IMG/VR virus record: IMGVR_UViG_3300046028_000962
Span: 1-38,187 of that record
Reading direction: 5' to 3' (one strand)
Source of the DNA: a virus
Length of the DNA: 38,187 bases
A program made the translations under genes and the position numbers. The notes under the pieces were generated by a model. The model saw only the letters and a program-made list of their open reading frames with translations, was not told the origin of the DNA and did no database searches. This document shows, piece by piece, positions 1 through 38,187 of the stretch (positions are counted from its first letter, which is position 1; the number at the start of each line of letters is the position of its first letter).

Positions 1-970
1 CTTGACCATCTTTCAGCTTACGAACAGCAGCCAACACGCTGTCGTTCATCATAATGGCGGTCGAAGGCGACGAACGATAGGCGGGATCAACGGAGTGGAT
101 CAGGTCGATGATTTCATCCGCAGTCACAGCAGCAACGGCAGCGGCGGTTTTGCCAGCGGTCGAGTTGGTCACGATGCCTTCAACGTCAGACGAACCCGAA
201 CCAGTGGTCAACTTCGAGTTCGCAATGCGACCAAGACGCTCACCAAGCAGTTCGCCAAGCAGCGATTCCATGTTCAAAATGGAGTCGTTTGCAAGTTCGT
301 AGGACCAACGAACCCATTCAGTGTCAAACGCATATGCGCCCAACGAAGCCTGACCGAAGGTAACGTCCGAACCGCCATCGTCAGTGACAGTGCCGCCTTC
401 TGTATGTGCAACAGCGACAGAAGCCGTGTCGTTTATAGTCGGGATGTTGAAGGTGTTGCCGCCAGTGGTGTTGATGACAGTGAACAAGTTGGAGTCATAC
501 ATCGGGCCAGAAGCAATCATGGCCTTGTCGATAAACGCAGCCAGTTCAACAGGAACAGTGTAGCCACCAGCGGAGTTCGTGCCAGCAGTTTGTGTGCGAA
601 CTTCAGCATTACGCAGAACGGCGCGATGCTCGTTGTCCAAGCCAGCGATACCGCCGTTGGCGATCATGGCATAGAACGCGGTGCGATAGTCAACCTTTGC
701 GCCGTCATCAACAGCAGCAACCGAAGTGCGCTCTGCAACAGGACGCTTTGACAAGTCAATGCCTTGGGCAGCGCGAACAGCAGCGTCCACTTTTTCCATG
801 CGCTTGGCAACGCCGTCAAGGCGATCATGCTCAACCATCATGGCGTCAAATTCGCGCTCAATTTCAGCGGCGCGGGCTTCGTTGGTTTTATCGGTAGCTT
901 CCGACAACTTGGAACGGGCCTCTGTGGCGATACGCGCCATTTGCTCCCGCAAGGTCTTTAGATCAGCCAT
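1..970 (-). CDS. Major capsid protein, HK97 gp5-like, left allele (C-terminus cut by window edge)
   Basis: The frame opens at an ATG ending at 970 and runs off the left edge, giving about 323 codons of a protein that is 417 residues in the right-hand allele. It starts MADLKTLREQ, followed by a long charged, alpha-helical N-terminal region (about residues 1-90) typical of the HK97 delta/scaffolding domain, then the capsid fold region. In this family the protein forms the icosahedral shell after cleavage by the adjacent protease. A strong ribosome site, GGAGGCCAT, sits just before the ATG and is shared with the major tail protein. It differs from the right allele in scattered residues, for example a GGTVTDDGG stretch where the other has GTQPTDDSG. 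The frame is intact as far as it can be read. Confidence 0.93.
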   Translation of the reverse strand, partial: MADLKTLREQMARIATEARSKLSEATDKTNEARAAEIEREFDAMMVEHDRLDGVAKRMEKVDAAVRAAQGIDLSKRPVAERTSVAAVDDGAKVDYRTAFYAMIANGGIAGLDNEHRAVLRNAEVRTQTAGTNSAGGYTVPVELAAFIDKAMIASGPMYDSNLFTVINTTGGNTFNIPTINDTASVAVAHTEGGTVTDDGGSDVTFGQASLGAYAFDTEWVRWSYELANDSILNMESLLGELLGERLGRIANSKLTTGSGSSDVEGIVTNSTAGKTAAAVAAVTADEIIDLIHSVDPAYRSSPSTAIMMNDSVLAAVRKLKDGQ

Positions 971-993
971 TATGGCCTCCTACAATGTGCCTT

Positions 994-1015
994 GCCCAAG
1001 GGCTGGGGATTGGGC
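994..1015 (-). other. Intercistronic hairpin between capsid and protease genes
   Basis: The 64-bp gap between protease stop and capsid start contains GCCCAA and TTGGGC arms around a 10-base loop. The same arms survive in the right allele (about 34258-34280) despite loop-length change by one base. There is no T-run, so it is not a typical intrinsic terminator. It may affect message processing or stability between the low-expressed protease and the highly expressed capsid gene; that role is inference. Confidence 0.45.
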
Positions 1016-1034
1016 CAACAGCGGGAGTCCGCCG

Positions 1035-2030
1035 TTATTCGTCAGCTACGAAATCCTTGCGTTCCCATGCTTGGCAAACGCGCAGACTTGCAGCAATGAA
1101 ATCTAGCTTTCCGCACCATCCACGAACACCGCCGTCTTGCAGTGGGGTCAACGGAACGTCTTCGATTGCTTTAAGCATTTCAGGCGTATTATTGAAATAC
1201 GCGCAATTTCCGCACAATTGGCGGCGGGCTTCAGCCTCGTTGATGCTCCAAACATCAGCCATCTTCGCCCAATATTCTGGATTGGCGGCTGGGTCAGACG
1301 AAGGAACTTCTGGCCCAAGATTCCAATTCTCAACAGCGTTCTGCATATTGATTGCGTTCATGCTGCCAGAAACAATCTCAGGCTGTTCAACTTCTGGCAA
1401 AAGATACTCATTGCGAACATCAATGCCAGCGGCCTTGGCCTTCATCCGCATACGGCGCACAGCCTGAGACTTAACCTGTTCTTCGCGGTGCTTTTGCAGC
1501 GACCGCAAAGCAATCTCTGTGCCATCGTAAGCTGGGGTGGTCACGATGCTGACATCAAACAATTGCGCTTCTTGGATCATGCGTTTCGGCATCTTAGAGT
1601 TGTCATCCCACTTCTGACGCACAGGCCGAAATGCAAATGACATTTTATCAAGATCACCGCGCTTCATCTTCGGCACGATGCTGCGAACGTCAGGGTCTGT
1701 TTGATCAAGCATGGCTTCCATATATAGGCCACGTTCATCTTCAACCAAGGTCAAAGTGCCAGAACGAGTGCGGGCCAGCGGCAAGCCTTCATGGTTAATC
1801 AGGAAAACCACATCATCCCGACCGATGGCATTGGTAAAAGCGCCGCGCATGATGACTTCGGTGAACATTCCACCGATGTTTGTTTCTTCGTTAAACACTG
1901 CGGCATAGCCAGCAACGCGCACTTCGCCATCTTCACCCTCACGGATTTCGACAGGAACACCACGGCGGATTTCTTTTTCAGACATTTCTGACCCCGTTTG
2001 ATGTTTTGAGTGTATCACATTACCCGCCAT
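1035..2030 (-). CDS. HK97-family prohead protease, short allele
   Basis: 331 residues. A serine protease of the HK97 prohead family (S78) that matures the capsid by cutting the capsid protein's N-terminal domain. Visible are the core VAGYAAVFN near residue 40, a likely catalytic His80 in FLINHEGLPLART and Ser131 in KMSFAFRP. After about residue 200 comes an extra C-terminal domain with four cysteines (C273, C276, C306, C319). The ATG ending at 2030 overlaps the portal stop by 11 bp; an internal ATG at 1985 (MSEKEIRRG) is an alternative start. Compared with the right allele it lacks about 189 N-terminal codons, with the homology breaking near 2022. Protease and fold calls are firm; the C-terminal domain is unassigned. 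Confidence 0.9.
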   Translation of the reverse strand: MAGNVIHSKHQTGSEMSEKEIRRGVPVEIREGEDGEVRVAGYAAVFNEETNIGGMFTEVIMRGAFTNAIGRDDVVFLINHEGLPLARTRSGTLTLVEDERGLYMEAMLDQTDPDVRSIVPKMKRGDLDKMSFAFRPVRQKWDDNSKMPKRMIQEAQLFDVSIVTTPAYDGTEIALRSLQKHREEQVKSQAVRRMRMKAKAAGIDVRNEYLLPEVEQPEIVSGSMNAINMQNAVENWNLGPEVPSSDPAANPEYWAKMADVWSINEAEARRQLCGNCAYFNNTPEMLKAIEDVPLTPLQDGGVRGWCGKLDFIAASLRVCQAWERKDFVADE

Positions 2031-3246
2031 TTACACCACCCACTTTAGGCTGACTGCCCAAAGGCACAGTTGCGCCTTGAATCAGCAGTTCCGTTGCACC
2101 CTTAGCTGGCAGATTTTCGATTGCACGAATTTCATCAGGTGTGCGGATAGCGTTCTGGATCGACACCGCATAGGCTTCCATGCGTGACTTCAGATCACCG
2201 CGCAGCAAGCCATCTACGTTAAATTCAACGTAGAAATCTGACCCACGACCAAAAAACTTCAGGTTCATTTCCTGTTCAAACTGTTCCACCCAGCGTTTGA
2301 CAGTGTGCTTAACGAAATGCAAATCCTGCTGTTCGGTATTACTGAACGTGCCGTGGGTCAGGTCTTGCAAGAATACAGGTGGCAACGAATAGATGCGGGC
2401 GATCTGTTCAATGCTAAACCGCTGCAATTCCAGAAGCTGCATATTCTCAGGGGATAGGCCGATGGTCTTTAGTTCATGGCCCAACGGCAAAGCCATAATC
2501 GGTCGGCCTTCCTTAGCCAGCTTCAAAGTCGTTGCAGCCACATCTTCGGATGCGCGATTAGCTGCCGCGCCAGATGCAAACGGCCCTTGCAGGACGGCAG
2601 GGGGGATGCCACCAGATTGGAACGCCTTCGATCCGTAGCGGCTGGCAGCGATAGCCATGCCGATGGCATCTTTGTTTTGCGAGATTGGCCCACGCGAATC
2701 CGTCAGGTTTGCTTTAAGCATAAATGGCAGATCAAGGATTTCGGTGGATTCATAAACCCGCGAACTGGCGCGATAGATTTTGCGCCCATCGATCAGACGT
2801 TCAACCCGCACCTTTGTGGGATCAAGCGGATACAGATTTACAATCTCGCCAAGGTTGTTGCGCTCAATGTAAGTAACAGCCCGACCGCCAGTTAGCGTCT
2901 GTTCAAACGAATATTTCCGCCATTCAAAGCTGGACATATCCTCGTTGATGGCATCGTGCAGGATTGTTGATAGGCCAATATCAGCCTTTTCACGCCCACC
3001 ATCAGCAGCTTTGCGATAGACTTGCAGTGGTAAACCAGCGATTGTGCCAGCAATAAAGTTAACTGCAGCCCAAACAGCAGGGACACCAAGTGCTGTATCC
3101 ACATTTACAGTTACTCCAGACGATGCGTAAAGGTCGCCCCAGCCCATAATTTGCAAGAAATCATTGGCAGAAACAGGTGCTGTCGGGTTTTCCAGATTGC
3201 GCTTTTCCGTCTTACGGAAACGATCAAAGAGTGCCATCTGTTCCAA
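2020..3246 (-). CDS. Portal protein, HK97 family, left allele
   Basis: 408 residues. The dodecameric portal sits at one capsid vertex, is the channel for DNA entry and docks the terminase. Family signs include GVPAVWAAVNFIAGTIAGLPLQVY (about residues 54-77, spaced by a few changes in relatives), the RRSIEQIARIYSLPP-like segment near residue 275 and NLKFFGRGSDFYVEFN further on. The length is normal for the family. It lies between large terminase (32 bp upstream) and protease (11 bp overlap), the usual order. Residues about 78-102 and the last ten residues differ from the right allele much more than the rest of the protein does. Confidence 0.95.
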   Translation of the reverse strand: MEQMALFDRFRKTEKRNLENPTAPVSANDFLQIMGWGDLYASSGVTVNVDTALGVPAVWAAVNFIAGTIAGLPLQVYRKAADGGREKADIGLSTILHDAINEDMSSFEWRKYSFEQTLTGGRAVTYIERNNLGEIVNLYPLDPTKVRVERLIDGRKIYRASSRVYESTEILDLPFMLKANLTDSRGPISQNKDAIGMAIAASRYGSKAFQSGGIPPAVLQGPFASGAAANRASEDVAATTLKLAKEGRPIMALPLGHELKTIGLSPENMQLLELQRFSIEQIARIYSLPPVFLQDLTHGTFSNTEQQDLHFVKHTVKRWVEQFEQEMNLKFFGRGSDFYVEFNVDGLLRGDLKSRMEAYAVSIQNAIRTPDEIRAIENLPAKGATELLIQGATVPLGSQPKVGGVNGG

Positions 3247-3278
3247 TCCATGCTGGATGTTTGAGAAAACATATCACA

Positions 3279-5003
3279 TCAACCGCCAAGTGTAAACGTG
3301 GGGTCATCCCAAGGCGATGATGGTGGCTTTGTTGCTTCGCCAACCATAGCAGCGCCGATAGCCATTGTTGCCGCCAAGGCCATGTCAATGCGGCCCGTTG
3401 CCCGCTGCTTTTCAAAACGGCGAAGGCCAGCAGGGCTAGTCCAAAAGCAAGCAGACGCAACCGCCGATCTAAGGGCTGGGTTGACCTCAATACGAATGCG
3501 CTTTTCCAAAATCAAATCCTCAAACTGATTGACGGATTGCGGCATCCAAAGTGGTGTGTCCTTGCGCTGGTTAGTTCCCTGCGGATGTTCCATCAAAGGC
3601 AACACGCCGCCAATTTCATCCAGTGCATTTTCAAAAGTTTTGATTAGCCAGCGGTCATATGACACGGCCTGAACGTCAAACTTTGCCGCAGCGTCAACGA
3701 TGTCATAAGCCAAATGGTCATAGCGAATGACTTTGCCAGGTGGTGCAATCAACCAACCATCGCGCACCCACACAGAATAGGGTGCTTTGTCCATCATCTC
3801 GCGCTGATCTACTGTGTCGGCTGGCGTATAGCCCCGCGCAAACAATGCAAACTTCGGTCGTCCATCTTCTGTTTGCCCATCTGGGAAAACATAAGCCACA
3901 CCCGTGATGTCCTTGGTTGCAGATAGGTCCAAGCCTATAAAACACGGCTTTTCAGCGAAATCATCCAGCGTCATAGACGGATCTTCGCAATCTTCCCATG
4001 CTTTTCGGCTGATCCAAGCTGCATCGGCATCGGTCCAGACGCAAAAGTGCAGCCTCAGAATGCTGTTCATCTTGCCCGGGATAGCTTTTGCCTGATCGAC
4101 CACGCCCTGCAAATAGCTTTCTTTCAGGATTACGCCCAACAATGGGTTCACTTTTGACCAGCAAGACGGGTCATTTAGTGGATCATCGCCCTCGTCCAAA
4201 GCGCAGACATAAGCAAATGTGGTGTCATCCTGCACATCACCAGCTGCGACAGCGCAAGCGTGTTCATGTTCTTCCCAACAAACGCTGTTTCTATCTGATC
4301 CGCTGTTGGTAATCATCAACATCAACGGCTGGTTGCGGAATTTAAAACCGCGCTCCAGCATTTCCATAATGCCGCGATCTGGATGCTCATGCACCTCGTC
4401 GCACAAAGCAAAGTGCGGGCGTGGGCCAGATCCACTCTTGCCACTGTCACGGCTAATCGGGCGAAAGAATGATCCAGTGCTGATGTAGGCAAGGTTCCAG
4501 ACAGGGTTGACCCCAGAAGGCGTTATGCGCTTTTCCAACGCCGGAGATTGGCGCACCATCTTCACGGCATCCTGAAACAAGATCATCGCCTGATCTTTTT
4601 TTGCAGCCGCAGCGTAAATCTGAGCCCCAGCTTCGCCGTCAGCCATCAAACCATATAGGCCGATGCCACCAGCAAGAGGTGATTTGCCATTGCCCTTGCC
4701 CATCTCAATGTAGCAACGTCGGAACCTCCGAAAGCCATCTGGCTTTTTCCAACCAAAGATTGATCCAACGATGAATGCTTGGCTGATGTGCAGATGAAAC
4801 GGCACACCTTCGAACTGACCTTCGCTAAGTTTCAGCGCATTATGAAAAAAACCGATGGCGCGATCAGCTGCGGTTTCGTCAAAATAAATGTCGGTGCGCT
4901 TGAGATCAGTCAGATGTCTACGGCATTGGTTGCGAACGTGCGGACCAGCAGAAATTTCACCAGCCATAACCTGTTCCGCATACTGATGGACAATGTGGGT
5001 CAT
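3279..5003 (-). CDS. Terminase large subunit (complete)
   Basis: 574 residues from the ATG ending at 5003. The frame stays open further upstream, but this ATG forms an ATGA overlap with the small-terminase stop, and the region beyond reads as the small subunit in another frame. Walker A-like GKGNGKS lies at about residues 102-108, Walker B FALCDEVHEH at about 198-207, and the nuclease-domain GLDLSATKD at about 357-365. The enzyme cuts concatemeric DNA and pumps it into proheads with ATP. It belongs to the HK97-like Terminase_1 group by overall pattern. The right allele covers residues 217-574 and differs by only a few residues. Confidence 0.95.
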   Translation of the reverse strand: MTHIVHQYAEQVMAGEISAGPHVRNQCRRHLTDLKRTDIYFDETAADRAIGFFHNALKLSEGQFEGVPFHLHISQAFIVGSIFGWKKPDGFRRFRRCYIEMGKGNGKSPLAGGIGLYGLMADGEAGAQIYAAAAKKDQAMILFQDAVKMVRQSPALEKRITPSGVNPVWNLAYISTGSFFRPISRDSGKSGSGPRPHFALCDEVHEHPDRGIMEMLERGFKFRNQPLMLMITNSGSDRNSVCWEEHEHACAVAAGDVQDDTTFAYVCALDEGDDPLNDPSCWSKVNPLLGVILKESYLQGVVDQAKAIPGKMNSILRLHFCVWTDADAAWISRKAWEDCEDPSMTLDDFAEKPCFIGLDLSATKDITGVAYVFPDGQTEDGRPKFALFARGYTPADTVDQREMMDKAPYSVWVRDGWLIAPPGKVIRYDHLAYDIVDAAAKFDVQAVSYDRWLIKTFENALDEIGGVLPLMEHPQGTNQRKDTPLWMPQSVNQFEDLILEKRIRIEVNPALRSAVASACFWTSPAGLRRFEKQRATGRIDMALAATMAIGAAMVGEATKPPSSPWDDPTFTLGG

Positions 5004-5494
5004 GTGAAATACTGCGCTGTCGGGTCGTTGTCCTGCGCTTTGTCTGCTTCGATGCCAAGGCGAACACGGCTGGAAGGTGTTAGGCCATATTCTGCCGCAT
5101 ACTTCATGGCGTCTCTCATGGCTGTGTTTGCTGTCCCGACCATCGGATTTTGCACAACATTTCCGTTTGTAGTTTGCATGATCAACCCACCACTTGCAGG
5201 GTTTTTCTTTGCCATTAGTTGAATTGCTTCTTCTGCCTTGCGCCAACGACCATAGGCCTGACAATACATTGCTAACCCACGCCCATCTATTTCAGTCAAG
5301 ATGCCGCATCGAAACAAAGCACCACAAATATGGTTCCATTCTTCCATTGCATACTCGTCAAGATGATCTGGCGGCTGCGGAATGTCAGGCATAACCATTA
5401 CAGGTTTAGGTTCGTTCCGCGCACGATTGCGCGAACGATTTTGATCAGTGATTAACTTGATTGCGGTTGGCTTTGGTTTTCTGCCTCTAGTCAT
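5000..5494 (-). CDS. Terminase small subunit, P27 family
   Basis: 164 residues from the ATG ending at 5494. The N-terminus MTRGRKPKPTAIKL is a P27-family hallmark, and MQTTNGNVVQNPMVGTANTA in the second half is also typical. The open frame continues upstream into the divergent intergenic region, so the longer form is rejected. Small terminase recognises the packaging site and hands DNA to the large subunit, whose start overlaps this stop by 4 bp. It is the first gene of the leftward packaging and head transcript at this end; its promoter should lie in 5495-5560. Confidence 0.92.
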   Translation of the reverse strand: MTRGRKPKPTAIKLITDQNRSRNRARNEPKPVMVMPDIPQPPDHLDEYAMEEWNHICGALFRCGILTEIDGRGLAMYCQAYGRWRKAEEAIQLMAKKNPASGGLIMQTTNGNVVQNPMVGTANTAMRDAMKYAAEYGLTPSSRVRLGIEADKAQDNDPTAQYFT

Positions 5495-5564
5495 GGTTTT
5501 TGTCTTTACTTTTTTTGTGGTTAATTTTACACATATTCTTGTAACAATAATATGGAGACAAAAA
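5495..5564. promoter_or_regulatory. Divergent AT-rich promoter region between small terminase and plus-strand genes
   Basis: About 70 bp, very AT-rich, lie between the small-terminase start and the plus-strand gene at 5565. On the plus strand TTTACA (5526-5531) and TAATAT (5548-5553) are separated by 16 bp, a good sigma70-like pair. A start near 5560 would leave almost no leader and fall beside the GGAG ribosome site at 5554, so the true -10 may be elsewhere. No convincing minus-strand promoter was resolved. Confidence 0.45.
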
Positions 5565-5765
5565 ATGACCGCATATGAACAAATGTGCTTTGACGCTGCT
5601 GTTGTGTTTGCCGCCGTGCGTGGCGCAAAACCTAATACACGCATTCGTCAAGAATTTGCAAATTTTGCTGACGCGCAAAGTTATGCTGCTACATTTGGCG
5701 ACAAGAAAACCATGATCTATGCAATCACCGCGCAAGGCAATAACGCCCACATCTGCAACGCATAA
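5565..5765 (+). CDS. Small phage protein of unknown function
   Basis: 66 residues from ATG at 5565, preceded by GGAG at 5554-5557. The protein starts MTAYEQMCFDAAVVFAAVRG and has no transmembrane segment or recognised motif. It reads as a small soluble alpha/beta protein. An open frame extends upstream of this ATG, but the ribosome site and divergent promoter argue for the short form. It is followed 12 bp later by another small plus-strand gene, and both end at the terminator at 6064-6090. Its plus orientation is unlike all neighbouring packaging genes, suggesting an independent cargo transcript. Confidence 0.75.
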   Translation: MTAYEQMCFDAAVVFAAVRGAKPNTRIRQEFANFADAQSYAATFGDKKTMIYAITAQGNNAHICNA

Positions 5766-6057: not shown

Positions 6058-7191
6058 TCAATCAAGGTCGCACTTTTGTGCGGCCTTTTTCCCAATAAAT
6101 TTAAACGAAAAAGTTTTTGTTGCTTGTCGCATTCCACCTTTTCTCATCATGTTTCCGCCGGGATTATATTGAGCATCATGAGTATTGTTTGATACACTTT
6201 TTAAAACCCAATTTTTGTTTTTAATCATGGATTGATAAACTGGAATGCTGCTGAATTTAGCTTGAACATCAAAACCTCTATCCACCATTATTTGTGAGGT
6301 CAAATCAATTACTTTAATGCCGAGACCAAACCCAACATAATCAGGATGAACAACAGTTCTGTTGCTGTGCATTATTCTTTTGGTTCCTTTTCGATGTGGA
6401 ACGTAATTTGCAAAACATTGAAAGCCAATTTGCTTTCCATCAAGATATATTCCGAATGTTTCTATGTGACCTCCCGGTAAATTTTTGCTTAAATAGTGAT
6501 ATTTGCTAAAATTTTTCCACGTATTTCTGTCGCATTCAGCAATGACAAATTCAAATTTTTCTTGTCTGACTGAGCTTCGCCAAAGACACCTCCGGTTTGT
6601 ATATTTTGCTGCATTACAATCAATAATCCAATCTGGATTTAACCATTCTGCAACATCATAGTGACAAGAAATTAACGTTATTTTCTTGTTGAATTTTCTA
6701 GCAAACTTTTGAACACAATGCGCCATAACTTTTGCAACATTTCTGTCAACAACCGATGTAAATTCATCTATGACAACAAATGGTCGCAAAGAACACATTT
6801 GAAGTGCAGCTTCCGCTCTTGCTTTTTGGCCGTTTGATAAAGCACCAGCTGGTTTGACCCAACACGCAACTTGTGACAAACCAATTCCAGTTAAAGCGGC
6901 TGCACATTCGTCATAACTCATAGATGACATAAATTGTTCAATAACTGGTTTTTTTAAATCAAGCAATGTATCAAAACACGCAGGACCAAAAATTTCTGTG
7001 GCCAAAGTTGTTTTTCCCGACCCAGATGCGCCAATTATTAAACCAACATTAAAATCACTTGTTACATCTGCAGAAATTTCCATGTGATGAGTCAATTTTT
7101 CATCAATGTTCAAATCAACAGATTGCGCCGCTTTGACACTACGAAAGCCATTTGGCGGTGGTGATTGAAGATTTACTACAAAAGTTTGCAT
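6058..7191 (-). CDS. ABC-type ATPase fused to GNAT acyltransferase domain; candidate DNA-modifying enzyme
   Basis: 377 residues. The N-terminal half is a single soluble ABC ATPase: Walker A GASGSGKTT (54-62), ABC signature LSNGQKARAE (118-127), Walker B FVVIDEF (138-144) and switch His177 in LISCHYD. No transmembrane segment is present, so it is not a transporter. The C-terminal half (about 212-340) looks like a GNAT acyltransferase with FGIYLDGKQIGFQ (246-258) and VHPDYVGFGLG (281-291), the acyl-CoA loop, although the usual Arg of that loop is replaced. The architecture resembles COG2401 (ABC ATPase fused to an acetyltransferase). It overlaps the ParB-like gene by 16 bp. By analogy with Mu Mom, a GNAT-fold enzyme acting on adenine in DNA, it may modify phage DNA; that is inference. 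The gene is visibly AT-richer than its neighbours, suggesting acquisition. Confidence 0.82.
   Translation of the reverse strand: MQTFVVNLQSPPPNGFRSVKAAQSVDLNIDEKLTHHMEISADVTSDFNVGLIIGASGSGKTTLATEIFGPACFDTLLDLKKPVIEQFMSSMSYDECAAALTGIGLSQVACWVKPAGALSNGQKARAEAALQMCSLRPFVVIDEFTSVVDRNVAKVMAHCVQKFARKFNKKITLISCHYDVAEWLNPDWIIDCNAAKYTNRRCLWRSSVRQEKFEFVIAECDRNTWKNFSKYHYLSKNLPGGHIETFGIYLDGKQIGFQCFANYVPHRKGTKRIMHSNRTVVHPDYVGFGLGIKVIDLTSQIMVDRGFDVQAKFSSIPVYQSMIKNKNWVLKSVSNNTHDAQYNPGGNMMRKGGMRQATKTFSFKFIGKKAAQKCDLD
6064..6090 (+). terminator. Intrinsic terminator of the 5565-6050 unit
   Basis: AAGGTCGCAC (6064-6073) pairs with GTGCGGCCTT (6078-6087) around a TTTT loop, with one G-T wobble, and a T-run reaches 6090. 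The hairpin lies 14 bp after the stop of the plus-strand gene. It sits inside the 3' end of the opposing ABC-GNAT gene, encoding that protein's last residues. The strong T-run is on the plus strand only. Confidence 0.85.
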
Positions 7192-7736
7192 TCTATGCCC
7201 TCATTTTGTGCGCGTTCATACCATTCTTGCAATAAAAATTCCGTTTCAAACGTCAACAACATTTGATTTTCTGGAACTTCTACATTTTTTGTTGCTTCTT
7301 CTTTTTCTTCCGCATCAACATCAAACAAATCAGCCAATTCACCCAAATCAAAACCTGTCAATTCAAGATCAAAACCCATGTCATCAAGGTTTTTCATTTC
7401 GATTGCCAACATGGCGTTATCCCAGCCAGCATTTATAGCCAACTTGTTATCCGCAATAACGTAGGCTTTTTTCTGAGCATCAGTCCAACCAGTGGCTGTC
7501 ATGGTTGGTACTTCTTCTAAACCTAGTTTCTGCGCAGCCAGCAAACGCCCATGCCCAGCGATGATTTGCCCATCCGTGTCAACCAAGATGGGCGTGGTAA
7601 ACCCCCATTCTTTGATGGACGCTGCGATCTGGTCAATCTGTTCTTTGCTGTGCGTTCTGCTGTTGCGAGCGTAAGGCACAAGCGCAGACACCTTGCGGCG
7701 CATCACGTTATCAGCGGGCCATTGGTTTTTTGTCAT
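7176..7736 (-). CDS. ParB/sulfiredoxin-fold protein paired with ABC-GNAT gene
   Basis: 186 residues from ATG 7736, chosen because GGAG lies 7 bases upstream; a TTG 21 bases earlier is less likely. The N-terminal domain (about 12-110) has VPYARNSRTHSKEQIDQIA and the signature IIAGHGRLLAA (58-68), followed by AYVIADNKLAINAGWD. This layout closely resembles the ParB-like half of phage proteins in which the domain is fused to an N6-adenine or other DNA methyltransferase; here no methyltransferase follows and the next gene is the ABC-GNAT fusion. A conserved acidic tail (DVDAEEKEE) precedes a C-terminal beta/alpha segment. The fold can act as an NTPase or CTP switch, nuclease or DNA clamp in relatives; the biochemical role here is not known. 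Translational coupling with its partner points to one functional unit. Confidence 0.85.
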   Translation of the reverse strand: MTKNQWPADNVMRRKVSALVPYARNSRTHSKEQIDQIAASIKEWGFTTPILVDTDGQIIAGHGRLLAAQKLGLEEVPTMTATGWTDAQKKAYVIADNKLAINAGWDNAMLAIEMKNLDDMGFDLELTGFDLGELADLFDVDAEEKEEATKNVEVPENQMLLTFETEFLLQEWYERAQNEGIECKLL

Positions 7737-7860
7737 GTTTTGCTCCAGTTTTATCAACTGAAACCACTTTTGACCCCCGATGTCAATTTAGGCTTTGTCA
7801 AAAGAAGATTTGTGTGCAGGTTTGGGTGTTTTGCCTATAGGGATCGCATATACCCCCCCC
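7737..7860. promoter_or_regulatory. Upstream region of the ParB/ABC-GNAT pair with nested inverted repeats
   Basis: The gap holds CTTTTGAC (7767-7774) and its exact inverse GTCAAAAG (7797-7804), with another GTCAA at 7782-7786 that also pairs with TTGAC. Three half-sites in 38 bp look operator-like. TTGACA occurs twice on the minus strand here but no well-spaced -10 was found. A CCTATAGG palindrome (7834-7841) and a run of nine C (7853-7861) abut the stop of the upstream gene. Confidence 0.4.
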
Positions 7861-32980: not shown

Positions 32981-34234
32981 TTAGGATGCAGCGTTCTTCA
33001 AGTGCTTGATAGCGGCGGTGTTAGCCAACACGCCATCAAAGCGGATGTAGCCCAAGATGCCGTAGTCGGGAGCAAAACGCTCACGGGCCACAAACAAGGT
33101 GGGTGCGCCAACTTTACGCACATAGAACTTGGACATATCGCCGAACAACATGATCTTGTTGGTAGCTGCTTGCGAAGCCATCGCTTGGTTTACAACCACG
33201 TTATAGCCCAAGATGTTTTGCGGAACAGCGGCCTGATAGTTGCCCATCTGCCAAAGGTAGTTGCCTTGACCATCTTTCAGCTTACGAACAGCAGCCAACA
33301 CGCTGTCGTTCATCATAATGGCGGTCGAAGGCGACGAACGATAGGCGGGATCAACGGAGTGGATCAGGTCGATGATTTCATCCGCAGTCACGGCAGCAAC
33401 GGCAGCGGCGGTTTTACCAGCGGTCGAGTTGGTAACAACACCTTCGACATCAGACGAACCCGAACCAGTGGTTAACTTCGAGTTCGCAATGCGACCCAAA
33501 CGCTCGCCAAGCAGTTCGCCCAGCAACGATTCCATGTTCAAGATGGAATCGTTTGCAAGTTCGTATGACCAGCGAACCCACTCAGTGTCAAACGCATATG
33601 CGCCCAACGAAGCCTGACCAAAAGTTACATCAGAACCGCTATCGTCTGTTGGCTGAGTCCCTTCTGTATGTGCAACAGCGACAGAAGCCGTGTCGTTTAC
33701 AGTCGGAATGTTGAACGTGTTTCCACCAGTGGTGTTAATCACAGTGAACAAGTTGGAGTCATACATCGGGCCAGAAGCAATCATGGCCTTGTCGATGAAC
33801 GCAGCAAGTTCAGTCGGAACAGTGTAACCACCAGCGGTCGTTGTGCCAGCAGTTTGTGTGCGAACTTCGGCATTACGCAAAACGGCGCGATGCTCGTTGT
33901 CCAAACCATCAACGCCGCCGTTGGCGATCATGGCAAAGAAAGCGGTGCGATAGTCAACCTTCGCGCCATCATCAACAGCAGCCACAGAGGTGCGCTCTGC
34001 GACAGGGCGCTTAGAAAAGTCGATGCCTTGCGAGGCACGAACAGCAGCGTCCACTTTTTCCATGCGCTTTGCCACGCCATCAAGGCGATCATGCTCAACC
34101 ATCATGGCGTCAAATTCGCGCTCGATTTCGGCAGCGCGGGCTTCGTTGGTTTTATCGGTAGCTTCCGACAGTTTGGAACGGGCCTCGGTGGCGATACGCG
34201 CCATTTGCTCCCGCAGGTCTTTAAGATCAGCCAT
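32981..34234 (-). CDS. Major capsid protein, HK97 gp5-like, right allele (complete)
   Basis: 417 residues. The helical delta domain covers about 1-90 (MADLKDLREQMARIATEARS), and the capsid fold follows: QTAGTTTAGGYTVPTELAAF (about 130-149), TVINTTGGNTFNIPTVNDTA, then DTEWVRWSYELANDSILNME and DSVLAAVRKLKDGQGNYLWQ. The C-terminal FAPDYGILGYIRFDGVLANT is typical. GGAGGCCAT before the ATG is a strong ribosome site. It supplies the C-terminus missing from the left allele. Confidence 0.95.
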   Translation of the reverse strand: MADLKDLREQMARIATEARSKLSEATDKTNEARAAEIEREFDAMMVEHDRLDGVAKRMEKVDAAVRASQGIDFSKRPVAERTSVAAVDDGAKVDYRTAFFAMIANGGVDGLDNEHRAVLRNAEVRTQTAGTTTAGGYTVPTELAAFIDKAMIASGPMYDSNLFTVINTTGGNTFNIPTVNDTASVAVAHTEGTQPTDDSGSDVTFGQASLGAYAFDTEWVRWSYELANDSILNMESLLGELLGERLGRIANSKLTTGSGSSDVEGVVTNSTAGKTAAAVAAVTADEIIDLIHSVDPAYRSSPSTAIMMNDSVLAAVRKLKDGQGNYLWQMGNYQAAVPQNILGYNVVVNQAMASQAATNKIMLFGDMSKFYVRKVGAPTLFVARERFAPDYGILGYIRFDGVLANTAAIKHLKNAAS

Positions 34235-34299
34235 AATGGCCTCCTACATTGTGCCTTGCCCAAGGGCTGGGGTTTTGGGCCAACAGCGGGAGACCGCCG

Positions 34300-35865
34300 T
34301 TATTCGTCAGCCACGAAGTCTTTGCGTTCCCATGCTTGGCAAGCACGCAGACTAGCAGCAATAAAATCTAGCTTTCCGCACCACCCGCGAACACCGCCGT
34401 CTTGCAGTGGCGTCAACGGAATATCCTCAATCGACTTCAGCATTTCAGGCGTATTGTTAAAATACGCGCAGTTTCCGCACACTTGGCGGCGGGCTTCAGC
34501 CTCGTTAATGCTCCAGACATCAGCCATCTTCGCCCAGTATTCGGGGTTTGCGGCTGGGTCAGACGAAGGAACCTCTGGCCCAAGGTTCCAGTTGTCATAA
34601 GCGTTTTGCATATTGATCGCATTAATGCTGCCAGAAACGATTTCGGGCTGCTCAATTTCCGGCAAAAGATACTCATTGCGCAAATCAATACCAGCGGCTT
34701 TGGCTTTCATGCGCATACGGCGCACAGCCTGAGACTTAACCTGTTCTTCGCGGTGCTTTTCCAGCGACCGCAGGGCGATCTCTGTGCCATCGTAGGCTGG
34801 AGTTGTAACGATGCTGACATCAAACAACTGCGCCTCTTGGATCATGCGCTTCGGCATCTTTGAGTTGTCATCCCACTTCTGACGCACAGGCCGAAATGCA
34901 AATGACATTTTGTCCAGATCACCGCGTTTCATCTTCGGCACGATGCTGCGAACATCAGGGTCAGTCTTATCAAGCATGGCTTCCATATACAGGCCACGTT
35001 CATCTTCAACCAAGGTCAAAGTGCCAGAACGAGTGCGGGCCAATGGCAGACCCTCATGGTTAATCAGGAAAACCACATCGTCACGACCGATGGCATTGGT
35101 AAATGCACCGCGCATGATTACTTCGGTGAACATTCCACCGATGTCTGCTTCTTCATTGAACACTGCGGCATAGCCAGCAACGCGAATTTCGCCGTCTTGA
35201 CCCTCACGGATTTCGACAGGAACACCACGGCGGATTTCTTTTTCAGACATTTCTGACCCCGTTTGATGTTTTGATTGTAGCATATTGCGGCTGGCTTCGT
35301 CCATCGGCACGGCATCTTCGAACAAGATAGGCTGAAAGTCGTTATCTTTCAGCCACTTCTTGGCCTGTTCTGGGGTAAACTTAGACGCATCAAAGCGAAT
35401 TGCTTGGATCACAAGCGGATCATTTCCTTTGATGCCATAAATGAAATCAATGCCATCGCCGCCTTGATCGTTCACACGGCTGAATTTATCAAACTCGCTT
35501 GGATCAACCAAACGCGCAGCGTGTTCGTTTGGATATGGTCTGGTTTCATATCCAAAACGACCTTCAGACGCGACAATTTTATCTGCCCAAGTCTGCCCAG
35601 CATCGCCGCCCCACAAAGCCCATGCGATGCGACCATTTGACGGGTATCCATCTTCACCAACACGAAAGCCTTGGGCTTCTTTGTCCACTTCGTGCCGTGC
35701 AAAATAGCTGACCATGCGCTGCACAGTATCCATCGACAAATCAACCTTGTTGGAAATATCCCTTGCGCGGGCAATGCCAACTTCTGTGCCGCCACGCCCA
35801 AATTCACGCCGCCAATCTAGGCCGCGCTGGGCTTCTTCTGCCATTGCGTCAGTTGGAACTGGCAT
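34300..35865 (-). CDS. HK97-family prohead protease, long allele with extra N-terminal domain
   Basis: 521 residues. Residues about 1-190 are absent from the left allele: AQRGLDWRREFGRGGTEVGI, YPSNGRIAWALWGGDAGQTW and SKFTPEQAKKWLKDNDFQPI are its landmarks. From QSKHQTGSEM on, it matches the short form, with catalytic-type His (LINHEGLPLART) and Ser (KMSFAF), then the same four-cysteine C-terminal domain. Such N-terminal segments occur in phage head proteins of other alphaproteobacteria. ATG 35865 overlaps the portal stop by 17 bp. Function of the extra domain is unknown; scaffold or delivery roles are possible. Confidence 0.9.
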   Translation of the reverse strand: MPVPTDAMAEEAQRGLDWRREFGRGGTEVGIARARDISNKVDLSMDTVQRMVSYFARHEVDKEAQGFRVGEDGYPSNGRIAWALWGGDAGQTWADKIVASEGRFGYETRPYPNEHAARLVDPSEFDKFSRVNDQGGDGIDFIYGIKGNDPLVIQAIRFDASKFTPEQAKKWLKDNDFQPILFEDAVPMDEASRNMLQSKHQTGSEMSEKEIRRGVPVEIREGQDGEIRVAGYAAVFNEEADIGGMFTEVIMRGAFTNAIGRDDVVFLINHEGLPLARTRSGTLTLVEDERGLYMEAMLDKTDPDVRSIVPKMKRGDLDKMSFAFRPVRQKWDDNSKMPKRMIQEAQLFDVSIVTTPAYDGTEIALRSLEKHREEQVKSQAVRRMRMKAKAAGIDLRNEYLLPEIEQPEIVSGSINAINMQNAYDNWNLGPEVPSSDPAANPEYWAKMADVWSINEAEARRQVCGNCAYFNNTPEMLKSIEDIPLTPLQDGGVRGWCGKLDFIAASLRACQAWERKDFVADE

Positions 35866-37078
35866 TTGGCTTCCCTATCGGCTGCGAACCAAGCGGAACA
35901 GTCGCGCCTTGGATCAGCAGATCATTCGCGCCCTTAGCGGGAAGGTTTTCAATTGCACGGATTTCATCAGGTGTGCGAATCGCATTCTGGATCGACACCG
36001 CATAGGCTTCCATGCGTGACTTAAGATCACCTCGCAGCAAGCCATCCACGTTAAATTCAACGTAGAAATCTGACCCACGACCAAAAAACTTCAGGTTCAT
36101 TTCCTGTTCAAACTGTTCCACCCAGCGTTTGACAGTGTGCTTAACGAAATGCAAATCCTGTTGTTCCGTATTGCTGAACGTGCCGTGCGTCAGGTCTTGC
36201 AGGAATACAGGCGGCAACGAATAGATGCGGGCGATCTGCTCAATGCTGAACCGCTGCAATTCCAAAAGCTGCATATTCTCAGGCGACAGGCCAATGGTCT
36301 TCAACTCATGGCCCAACGGCAGGGCCATAATCGGTCGGCCTTCCTTAGCCAGCTTCAAGGTGGTTGCAGCCACATCTTCGGATGCGCGATTAGCTGCCGC
36401 GCCAGATGCAAACGGCCCTTGCAGCACAGCGGGGGGGATGCCACCAGATTGGAACGCCTTCGATCCGTAGCGGCTGGCAGCGATAGCCATTCCGATGGCA
36501 TCTTTATTTTGCGAGATTGGCCCACGCGAATCCGTCATGTTTGCTTTAAGCATAAATGGCAGATCAAGGATTTCGGTGGATTCATAAACCCGCGAACTGG
36601 CGCGAAAGATTTTGCGCCCATCAATCAGTCGCTCGACCCGCACTTTGGTAGGATCAAGCGGATATAGGTTTACAATCTCGCCGCTGTTGTTGCGCTCGAT
36701 GTAAGTGACAGCACGACCACCCGTTAGCGTCTGTTCAAAGGAGTATTTCCGCCATTCAAAGCTGCTCATATCGTTGTTTATGGCATCGTGCAGCATCGTA
36801 GAAAGGCCAGATTTGACCTTTTCGCGGCTTCCATCAGGCGACTTTTGATAGACTTGCAGCGGCAAACCAGCGATTGTGCCAGCGATAAAGTTGACAGCAG
36901 CCCACACCGCAGGAACGCCAAGCGCCGTGTCGACGTTTACAGTGACGCCAGAAGATGCGTAAAGGTCGCCCCAACCCATGATTTGCAAGAAATCATTGGC
37001 AGAAACAGGCGCAGTTGGGTTTTCTAGATTGCGTTTTTCCGTTTTACGGAACCGATCAAAGAGTGCCATCTGTTCCAA
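35849..37078 (-). CDS. Portal protein, HK97 family, right allele
   Basis: 409 residues, nearly identical to the left copy apart from a patch at about 78-102 (QKSPDGSREKVKSGL against RKAADGGREKADIGL) and the last dozen residues (IGKPNASSN against KVGGVNGG). The C-terminal switch coincides with the site where the extra protease domain begins, so one recombination event may explain both. The rest is conserved. Confidence 0.95.
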   Translation of the reverse strand: MEQMALFDRFRKTEKRNLENPTAPVSANDFLQIMGWGDLYASSGVTVNVDTALGVPAVWAAVNFIAGTIAGLPLQVYQKSPDGSREKVKSGLSTMLHDAINNDMSSFEWRKYSFEQTLTGGRAVTYIERNNSGEIVNLYPLDPTKVRVERLIDGRKIFRASSRVYESTEILDLPFMLKANMTDSRGPISQNKDAIGMAIAASRYGSKAFQSGGIPPAVLQGPFASGAAANRASEDVAATTLKLAKEGRPIMALPLGHELKTIGLSPENMQLLELQRFSIEQIARIYSLPPVFLQDLTHGTFSNTEQQDLHFVKHTVKRWVEQFEQEMNLKFFGRGSDFYVEFNVDGLLRGDLKSRMEAYAVSIQNAIRTPDEIRAIENLPAKGANDLLIQGATVPLGSQPIGKPNASSN

Positions 37079-37110
37079 TCCATAATGGATGCTTCCGAGA
37101 ACATATCAGA

Positions 37111-38187
37111 TTAGGCACCTAGTGTAAATGTTGGATCATCCCAAGGTGAAGACGGCGGCTTTGTTGCTTCACCAGCCATTGCAGCACCTATCGCCATTGT
37201 GGCAGCTAACGCCATGTCGATGCGCCCTGTTGCCCGTTGCTTTTCAAATCGACGAAGGCCGGCAGGGCTTGTCCAGAAGCAAGCGGACGCAACCGCAGAT
37301 CTAAGCGCGGGATTGACTTCGATCCTGATGCGCTTTTCCAAGATCAAATCTTCAAACTGACTGACAGATTGCGGCATCCACAGCGGTGTGTCTTTGCGTT
37401 GGTTCGTTCCCTGCGGGTGTTCAATCAGTGGCAACACGCCGCCGATCTCATCCAAGGCATTTTCGAATGTTTTAATCAGCCATCGGTCATATGAAACTGC
37501 TTGAACGTCAAACTTTGCCGCAGCGTCAACGATGTCATAAGCCAAATGGTCATAGCGAATGACTTTGCCAGGTGGTGCAATCAACCAACCATCGCGCACC
37601 CACACAGAATAGGGTGCTTTGTCCATCATCTCGCGCTGATCTACTGTGTCGGCTGGGGTATAGCCACGCGCAAACAATGCAAACTTTGGTCGTCCATCTT
37701 CTGTCTGACCATCTGGGAAAACATAGGCAACGCCAGTGATGTCCTTGGTTGCAGATAGGTCCAAACCTATAAAGCACGGCTTTTCAGCGAAATCATCTAG
37801 CGTCATAGACGGATCTTCGCAATCTTCCCATGCTTTTCGGCTGATCCAAGCTGCATCGGCATCGGTCCAGACGCAAAAGTGCAGCCGCAGAATGCTGTTC
37901 ATTTTGCCCGGGATAGCTTTTGCCTGATCGACCACGCCCTGCAAATAGCTTTCTTTCAGGATTACGCCCAACAATGGGTTCACTTTTGACCAGCAAGACG
38001 GGTCATTTAGTGGATCGTCACCCTCATCTAACGCACAGACATAAGCAAAAGTGGTGTCATCTTGCACATCACCAGCTGCGACAGCACAAGCGTGTTCGTG
38101 TTCCTCCCAGCAAACGCTGTTTCGATCCGACCCGCTGTTTGTAATCATTAGCATCAACGGCTGGTTGCGAAACTTAAAACCGCGTTC
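37111..38187 (-). CDS. Terminase large subunit, right allele (N-terminus beyond the window)
   Basis: The frame runs uncut to the last base and covers residues 217-574 of the left copy, starting ERGFKFRNQP. The nuclease-domain motif GLDLSATKD is present; the ATPase motifs lie outside the window. Few amino-acid changes from the left copy are seen (for example LIEHPQ for LMEHPQ, SVSQF for SVNQF) despite many silent ones. Confidence 0.93.
   Translation of the reverse strand, partial: ERGFKFRNQPLMLMITNSGSDRNSVCWEEHEHACAVAAGDVQDDTTFAYVCALDEGDDPLNDPSCWSKVNPLLGVILKESYLQGVVDQAKAIPGKMNSILRLHFCVWTDADAAWISRKAWEDCEDPSMTLDDFAEKPCFIGLDLSATKDITGVAYVFPDGQTEDGRPKFALFARGYTPADTVDQREMMDKAPYSVWVRDGWLIAPPGKVIRYDHLAYDIVDAAAKFDVQAVSYDRWLIKTFENALDEIGGVLPLIEHPQGTNQRKDTPLWMPQSVSQFEDLILEKRIRIEVNPALRSAVASACFWTSPAGLRRFEKQRATGRIDMALAATMAIGAAMAGEATKPPSSPWDDPTFTLGA

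Follow-up and report, generated by a model that had tools for sequence, protein, structure and literature searches.

Phage proteins that join an ABC ATPase to a GNAT domain have been described before. For the protein of Tenacibaculum phage pT24, an uncharacterised acylation of DNA bases was predicted by Iyer et al. in 2013, as cited in a later account (PMC7824862), and the protein analysed here, which we call ABC-GNAT, belongs by its sequence with these published proteins: family, domains and predicted role are the same, and the family itself is not new. The frameshift signal, the constant mini-domain partner and the replacement of mom described below are absent from the passage of that account on such proteins. 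Mom of phage Mu has a GNAT fold, as ABC-GNAT has, with an HY motif to which HYL of ABC-GNAT may correspond, and occupies the same slot in sibling phages, but carries no ABC domain. The tRNA(Met) cytidine acetyltransferase TmcA (2zpa) combines an ATPase, of another class than ABC, with a GNAT domain that acetylates a nucleobase; it is the top fold match of the full-length ABC-GNAT model (E 7.8e-7), although the match is weak (TM-score 0.29, rmsd 13.7) and the substrate of TmcA is RNA.

Two further systems resemble the way in which the ABC-GNAT gene appears to be read. The +1 frameshift cassette of prfB has, to our knowledge, been regarded as specific to release factor 2; it has in common with ABC-GNAT a Shine-Dalgarno (SD)-like hexamer, a spacer of exactly 3 nt and CUU followed by U or C, but prfB has UGA after CUU and ABC-GNAT has not, and in ABC-GNAT the +1 reading would give the short form and the zero frame the long one. 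The dnaX gene (tau/gamma) is likewise a single ATPase gene with two products that have the ATPase core in common. Runs of nine A or T slip in transcription, dnaX uses either slippage or ribosomal frameshifting in different bacteria (PMC5009743), and the ABC-GNAT lineages appear to switch between the same devices. The dnaX protein is unrelated, and in ABC-GNAT the longer form adds an acyltransferase.

The window, by which we mean the whole stretch of DNA analysed, is a complete IMG/VR virus record of 38,187 nt. Its ABC-GNAT gene lies behind a partner gene with a ParB-like domain (Table 1). The initial annotation had reported that a ParB-like ORF with the motif IIAGHGRLLAA overlaps the ABC-GNAT ORF by 16 bp, and the coordinates agree (7176-7191); most relatives have the same arrangement. 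For the partner, an ATG at 7736, where the region first described ended, is a likelier start than the TTG at 7757. Upstream of the partner gene, the ORF at 7861-8664 matches phrog_8198, which has no assigned function, and has no Pfam match.

Table 1. Positions of the ABC-GNAT locus features in the window
Feature	Position	Strand	Remarks
Partner gene, ParB-like N-terminal domain and C-terminal mini-domain	7176..7757	(-)	TTG start
ParB_N domain, residues 30-88	7494..7670	(-)	PF02195, E 5.6e-8, above cut-off
C-terminal mini-domain, about residues 163-193	7179..7271	(-)	own HMM; no Pfam match
ABC-GNAT long form, 377 aa	6058..7191	(-)	ATG start; phrog_11143, E 1.4e-72, whole protein covered
ABC ATPase domain, residues 1-199	6595..7191	(-)	invariant Walker A, LSNGQ, Walker B, D-loop, H-loop
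CGGAGG, Shine-Dalgarno-like putative stimulator, codons 200-201	6589..6594	(-)	conserved synonymous sites
CTT, putative slip codon, codon 203, 3 nt behind CGGAGG, next base T	6583..6585	(-)	CTT conservation
+1-frame tail of predicted short form, overlaps GNAT coding start	6489..6581	(-)	stop TAA at 6489-6491
GNAT domain, residues 212-367	6091..6558	(-)	HYL (232-234); V-x-P-D-Y-x-G-x-G-x-G acetyl-CoA motif
Terminase small subunit, next gene downstream of ABC-GNAT	5000..5644	(-)	PF05119, E 6.7e-26
Terminase large subunit	3279..5264	(-)	PF20441, PF03354

The N-terminal part of ABC-GNAT had been described as a complete soluble ABC ATPase, and this description stands: the Walker A motif (GxSGSGKT), the signature, the joined Walker B and D-loop (DEFTSVVDR) and H177 are all present and unchanged in 14 relatives, and the AlphaFold2 model of this part resembles ABC nucleotide-binding domains. 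The ABC_tran match of the window protein is slightly below the Pfam cut-off (24 versus 25 bits). Looking for an ABC transporter, we found no membrane domain in the protein, in which the GNAT part follows the ABC part, and no permease among the neighbouring genes (HNH, unknown, ParB and terminase). By sequence profiles the GNAT part of the window protein is weak (E about 0.01-0.03), and Acetyltransf_7 is matched by 25 of 45 relatives. The AlphaFold2 models have a mean pLDDT of 88.8 for full-length ABC-GNAT and 87.5 for the GNAT part alone, and the best-scoring PDB matches listed for the latter are acyltransferases; the initial annotation had made a C-terminal GNAT fold a test of its reading, and the model bears it out.

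A total of 81 phage records match ABC-GNAT by tblastn and more than 80 viral contigs also carry it, so the pair is not a chance arrangement; the conserved neighbourhood that had been predicted for other phages is found in many of them as the same gene pair. The tblastn relatives include Pasteurella phage Pmp13 (55% identity), Leptospira phages LE3/LE4 (52%) and pT24 (35%, E 2e-38). In the pT24 record (LC168164, locus L040) an in-frame stop near 3631 lies within the GNAT part, and the annotation divides the protein into two ABC genes; the stop could stem from a sequencing error, from decay or from recoding. Frame breaks in loci L030 and L031, at positions other than the ABC/GNAT junction, were put down to assembly errors or decay and left out. 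Our first tblastn search counted six Klebsiella records. The Klebsiella phages KP27/KP15, which have an unexplained restriction resistance, were provisionally dropped as candidate carriers; no Klebsiella was among the matches listed for the PX29 query. We found no mention of COG2401 in the open-access literature searched, and ABC-GNAT is unmentioned in the available part of a ParB survey (PNAS 2025).

The partner of ABC-GNAT is more constant at its C terminus than in its ParB-like domain. By tblastn, a ParB homologue lies directly upstream in 72 of 86 loci (counted where at least 700 nt of upstream sequence was present, near copies included), with overlaps of mostly 16 or 19 nt; 12 of the remaining 14 loci have a divergent ORF at the same place, many of them recognisably ParB-like. 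The ParB_N domain is an optional module, missing from several relatives, and the window partner scores 34.3 bits against the full ParB model TIGR00180, below its cut-off of 58.45. We built an HMM for the last ~45 residues of the partner from 56 non-redundant seeds. This mini-domain HMM matches the ORF directly upstream of ABC-GNAT in almost all loci, including ORFs of about 40-70 aa that stand alone and have no ParB domain, as in Pseudomonas phage Komp_PAO1_1 (E 1.6e-5), a gut phage (5.7e-10), a Pirellulales contig (1.7e-8) and locus L109 (2e-10). In the sub-lineage of pT24, P12024S, VmeM32 and PX29, no mini-domain partner adjoins ABC-GNAT. Because it is found behind varied ParB-like domains or standing alone, the C-terminal mini-domain of ~40 aa is, on these profile matches, the constant partner, the ParB fold being common but optional. 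The suggestion that ParB gives the system its DNA targeting is therefore only partly upheld: a ParB-like gene is upstream in most loci, but the part that is constant is the mini-domain. We considered whether Komp_PAO1_1 and the Porphyromonas phages have a Mom-like Com zinc finger upstream of ABC-GNAT and rejected this, since the small ORFs there match the mini-domain instead (weakly in Porphyromonas). The annotated Porphyromonas 'acr candidate' (locus L137, 1370-1498, 42 aa) matches the mini-domain HMM at E 0.06 and is probably, judged from this weak match, not an anti-CRISPR but the mini-domain that accompanies ABC-GNAT.

Several comparisons connect the locus with DNA modification. In the Porphyromonas phages 014a and 008a, sequence identity is 86% as far as the last tail gene and 82% at the right end; the segment enclosed by these flanks holds a Mom homologue in one phage, and in the other a mini-ORF, ABC-GNAT and a formyltransferase-like gene. 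From this alignment the ABC-GNAT cassette exactly replaces mom, which is new support for the DNA-acylation prediction. Komp_PAO1_1 has the same trio. The ParB part of the window partner (residues 5-165) matches phrog_498 (E 2.2e-54), the ParB type that is fused to phage DNA methyltransferases, as the initial annotation had recognised; where phrog_498 domains carry the methyltransferase, the window ParB has the C-terminal mini-domain instead. In Microbacterium phage Appa a ParB-like gene overlaps a Mom homologue. Alignment of the GNAT and Mom profiles by hhalign gave a probability of 60%, with HYL aligned to HYS, a weak similarity. The proposed link to Mom is thus sustained by the cassette swap and by this profile similarity, but not by family membership, as the window GNAT scores 16.4 bits against the Mom family PF25680, under its cut-off of 27.1. 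Taken together, the mom swap, the methyltransferase-type ParB, the ParB/Mom pair of Appa and the GNAT/Mom alignment make DNA acylation the best-supported role, predicted with somewhat better than even confidence. The earlier suggestion of an ATP-driven acyltransferase acting on DNA gains from the GNAT fold, the Mom link and the shared ParB type; as an idea it was already in Iyer et al. 2013, according to PMC7824862.

The strongest competitor is a protein acetyltransferase, in which the target of the GNAT domain would be a protein of the host or the phage, for example a restriction, packaging or RNA polymerase factor, and the ABC part and the partner would recruit the domain to it. Most GNATs acylate amines of proteins or small molecules. 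Among the PDB matches listed, N-terminal, polyamine and protein acetyltransferases have the nearest GNAT folds, and phage GNATs acting on host RNA polymerase are known (PMC7824862). Against such a target stand the replacement of mom in the Porphyromonas phages, a ParB type held in common with DNA methyltransferases and the adjacency of ParB and Mom in Appa, and we consider it fairly unlikely.

Some neighbouring genes may bear on the chemistry. A Formyl_trans_N gene lies directly behind ABC-GNAT in the Pseudomonas phage and the Porphyromonas phages (L143, 6024-6641; L142, 5431-5904), and this formyltransferase-like gene may belong to the modification chemistry. In Streptococcus phages a gene for an ASCH domain lies directly behind the split ABC-GNAT (L131, 2491-2859; L042, 4129-4506); one ASCH protein, YqfB, hydrolyses N4-acetylcytidine. 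In phage Jace the gene directly behind ABC-GNAT encodes a PanD-like aspartate decarboxylase (L130, 2598-3023), a possible source of an acyl donor. In the LE3/LE4 paper the words modification, restriction and methyl are absent.

The pair is widespread and its usual place is just upstream of the terminase, which is the commonest annotated downstream neighbour of ABC-GNAT. This could suggest a function in packaging or genome maintenance, with an ABC clamp and its partner working with terminase and the GNAT domain accessory or regulatory. However, the annotated neighbours listed are not terminase genes in the transposable Porphyromonas phages or in Komp_PAO1_1, Jace, EastWest, P12024S, PX29 and pT24, and late-operon position alone accounts for the adjacency elsewhere, so that we regard this function as rather unlikely.

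The first reading of the sequence missed a probable programmed-frameshift signal at the ABC/GNAT junction; the first clue to it was that the ABC and GNAT parts are in different frames in several relatives. We surveyed the junction in about 100 loci and computed codon statistics on 53 relatives less than 85% identical. Most members, which are fused in frame like the window gene, carry [CA]GGAGG-NNN-CTT-Y, arranged as in the prfB +1 cassette; the window has CGGAGG-TGT-CTT-T. Of the 48 relatives with Arg at codon 200, 46 use CGG or AGG; codon 201 is AGG in 46 of 47, and codon 203 is CTT in all 39 with Leu, followed by T (25), C (13) or A (1). The amino acids at the site vary (RR, KE, RG, GR) while the purine hexamer and CTT are retained. 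Variants of the signal include AAGGAG-TGT-CTT in a Gordonia phage and CGGGGG-TGT-CTT in a planctomycete locus, and a few relatives lack CTT or have ATG in its place. The codon after CTT is UGG in the window and UGG, UGU, CGN or CAR in most relatives, and not the UGA of prfB. No other slip site of prfB comes near CUU_U in efficiency (PMC5009743).

Constraint extends to the other reading frame. Within the gene, synonymous constraint is strongest at the GGAGG and CTT codons and at codons 228-235, where the +1 stop lies, and codons 234-235 (mostly Leu-Ser) use only combinations that read TAA, TGA or (once) TAG in +1. In 53 of 53 relatives, +1 reading from the junction would meet its first stop at one fixed codon, against 7.8 expected from synonymous reshuffling with each gene's own codon use; the relatives are related by descent and do not count as independent trials, but they are diverse enough for amino acids at the site to have changed around a retained hexamer and CTT. 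In +2, only 1 of 53 is open. When stretches of 33 codons were scanned along the gene, +1 was open in 52 of 53 at codon 199 and elsewhere in a mean fraction of 0.14, at most 0.45. On this evidence the junction very probably carries a programmed-frameshift signal, and selection on both readings is well supported. The predicted products in the window are a 377-aa ABC-GNAT from the zero frame and a 233-aa ABC-short with the tail peptides NLNLSLLNATEIR and, at its end, GKILANITI. No report of recoding in ABC-GNAT was found in the open-access literature searched; the ABC clusters of the GeneTack recoding survey turned out to be transporters with translational coupling, not ABC-GNAT (PMC3711429).

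GGAGG is also a ribosome-binding site, and the junction might instead direct internal initiation of a separate GNAT or small protein, as one lineage (L081, L091-L093) with a GGAGG-like sequence followed by ATG could indicate. In the window, however, neither the GNAT frame nor the +1 frame offers a start codon at working distance after GGAGG, the conserved element is CTT and not a start codon, and split members run the ABC frame straight into the +1 tail, all of which makes initiation at this site quite improbable. In L081, L091, L092 and L093 it is ATG-GTT that replaces CTT after the SD-like hexamer, and the open +1 tail and its stop are kept.

Other lineages appear to obtain the two readings by other means. 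Some have an in-frame run of about ten T at the junction; others have A or T runs of 9-12 nt with the GNAT part in the -1 frame, and Firmicute phages (isolates P335, Vinitor-27, MismyG and Javan141) have a split arrangement without such a run. In the A/T-run and split lineages alike, the ABC frame runs on into the same short tail, with a C terminus of the type -[IT]-I-[IT]-stop; among the isolates examined the +1 stop is missing only in PX29. In 9 of 14 split members no start codon precedes the conserved GNAT core in the GNAT frame, and this missing start rules out a separate GNAT gene for most of them, an exclusion that does not cover L134, L136 and L110. Many loci are metagenomic contigs, in which homopolymer indels can mimic a split, but isolates from several laboratories are also split. 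A quick tree of the ABC domain, in which many branches are weak, implies at least six changes between fused and split and at least nine changes of signal type, and the SD-type signal occurs on both sides of its deepest split; by this tree the signal has turned over several times independently. Its replacement by other slippage devices where it was lost implies that the two products matter.

We favour, with a probability of about 0.6, a late-operon cassette that protects phage DNA, most likely through acylated bases, and whose ABC gene is read in two ways. Family, folds, coupled partner and selection on the frameshift signal and +1 tail are supported by sequence; frameshifting itself and its rate, an ABC dimer clamp on DNA, the role of the partner and DNA as the acyl acceptor are what we infer. 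Zero-frame reading would give ABC-GNAT, and a prfB-like +1 frameshift at CGGAGG-TGT-CTT-T would give the truncated ABC with its conserved C-terminal tail. Because ABC ATPases act as dimers, the mix of ABC-short and ABC-GNAT could set the number of GNAT arms on each ATP-driven DNA clamp, much as dnaX does for tau and gamma, mixed dimers carrying one arm or none, and the mini-domain, which in the window is joined to a ParB-like NTP-binding fold, would be the docking or loading partner. More tentatively, the prfB-type cassette might fix the ratio of ABC-short to ABC-GNAT, such that an asymmetric clamp with its mini-domain/ParB loader writes an acylated base, for example N4-acetylcytosine, the base that TmcA makes on tRNA; the ASCH neighbours in streptococcal phages may read or remove such a base. 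Soluble ABC ATPases are also found in defence systems, but exclusion of other phages by a prophage is very improbable here, given that the gene sits next to structural genes in the operon and occurs in the Leptospira phages LE3/LE4, which the title of their paper calls lytic.

The prfB layout is here retained in a candidate enzyme of DNA modification, in phages whose hosts span many bacterial phyla. A functional prediction made ten years ago gains handles in the two-product test, the mom-swap pair and an obligate partner of ~40 aa. Annotations can also be corrected, as many ABC-GNAT genes stand as two broken ORFs (iron-siderophore transporter, DNA polymerase, acr candidate). In the window itself, positions 1-4355 and 33264-38187 are direct repeats, 90-91% identical, and both copies include genes for the terminase large subunit, portal and head protease; either the assembler joined two variants of a single phage, or a circular genome was over-run in a mixed population.
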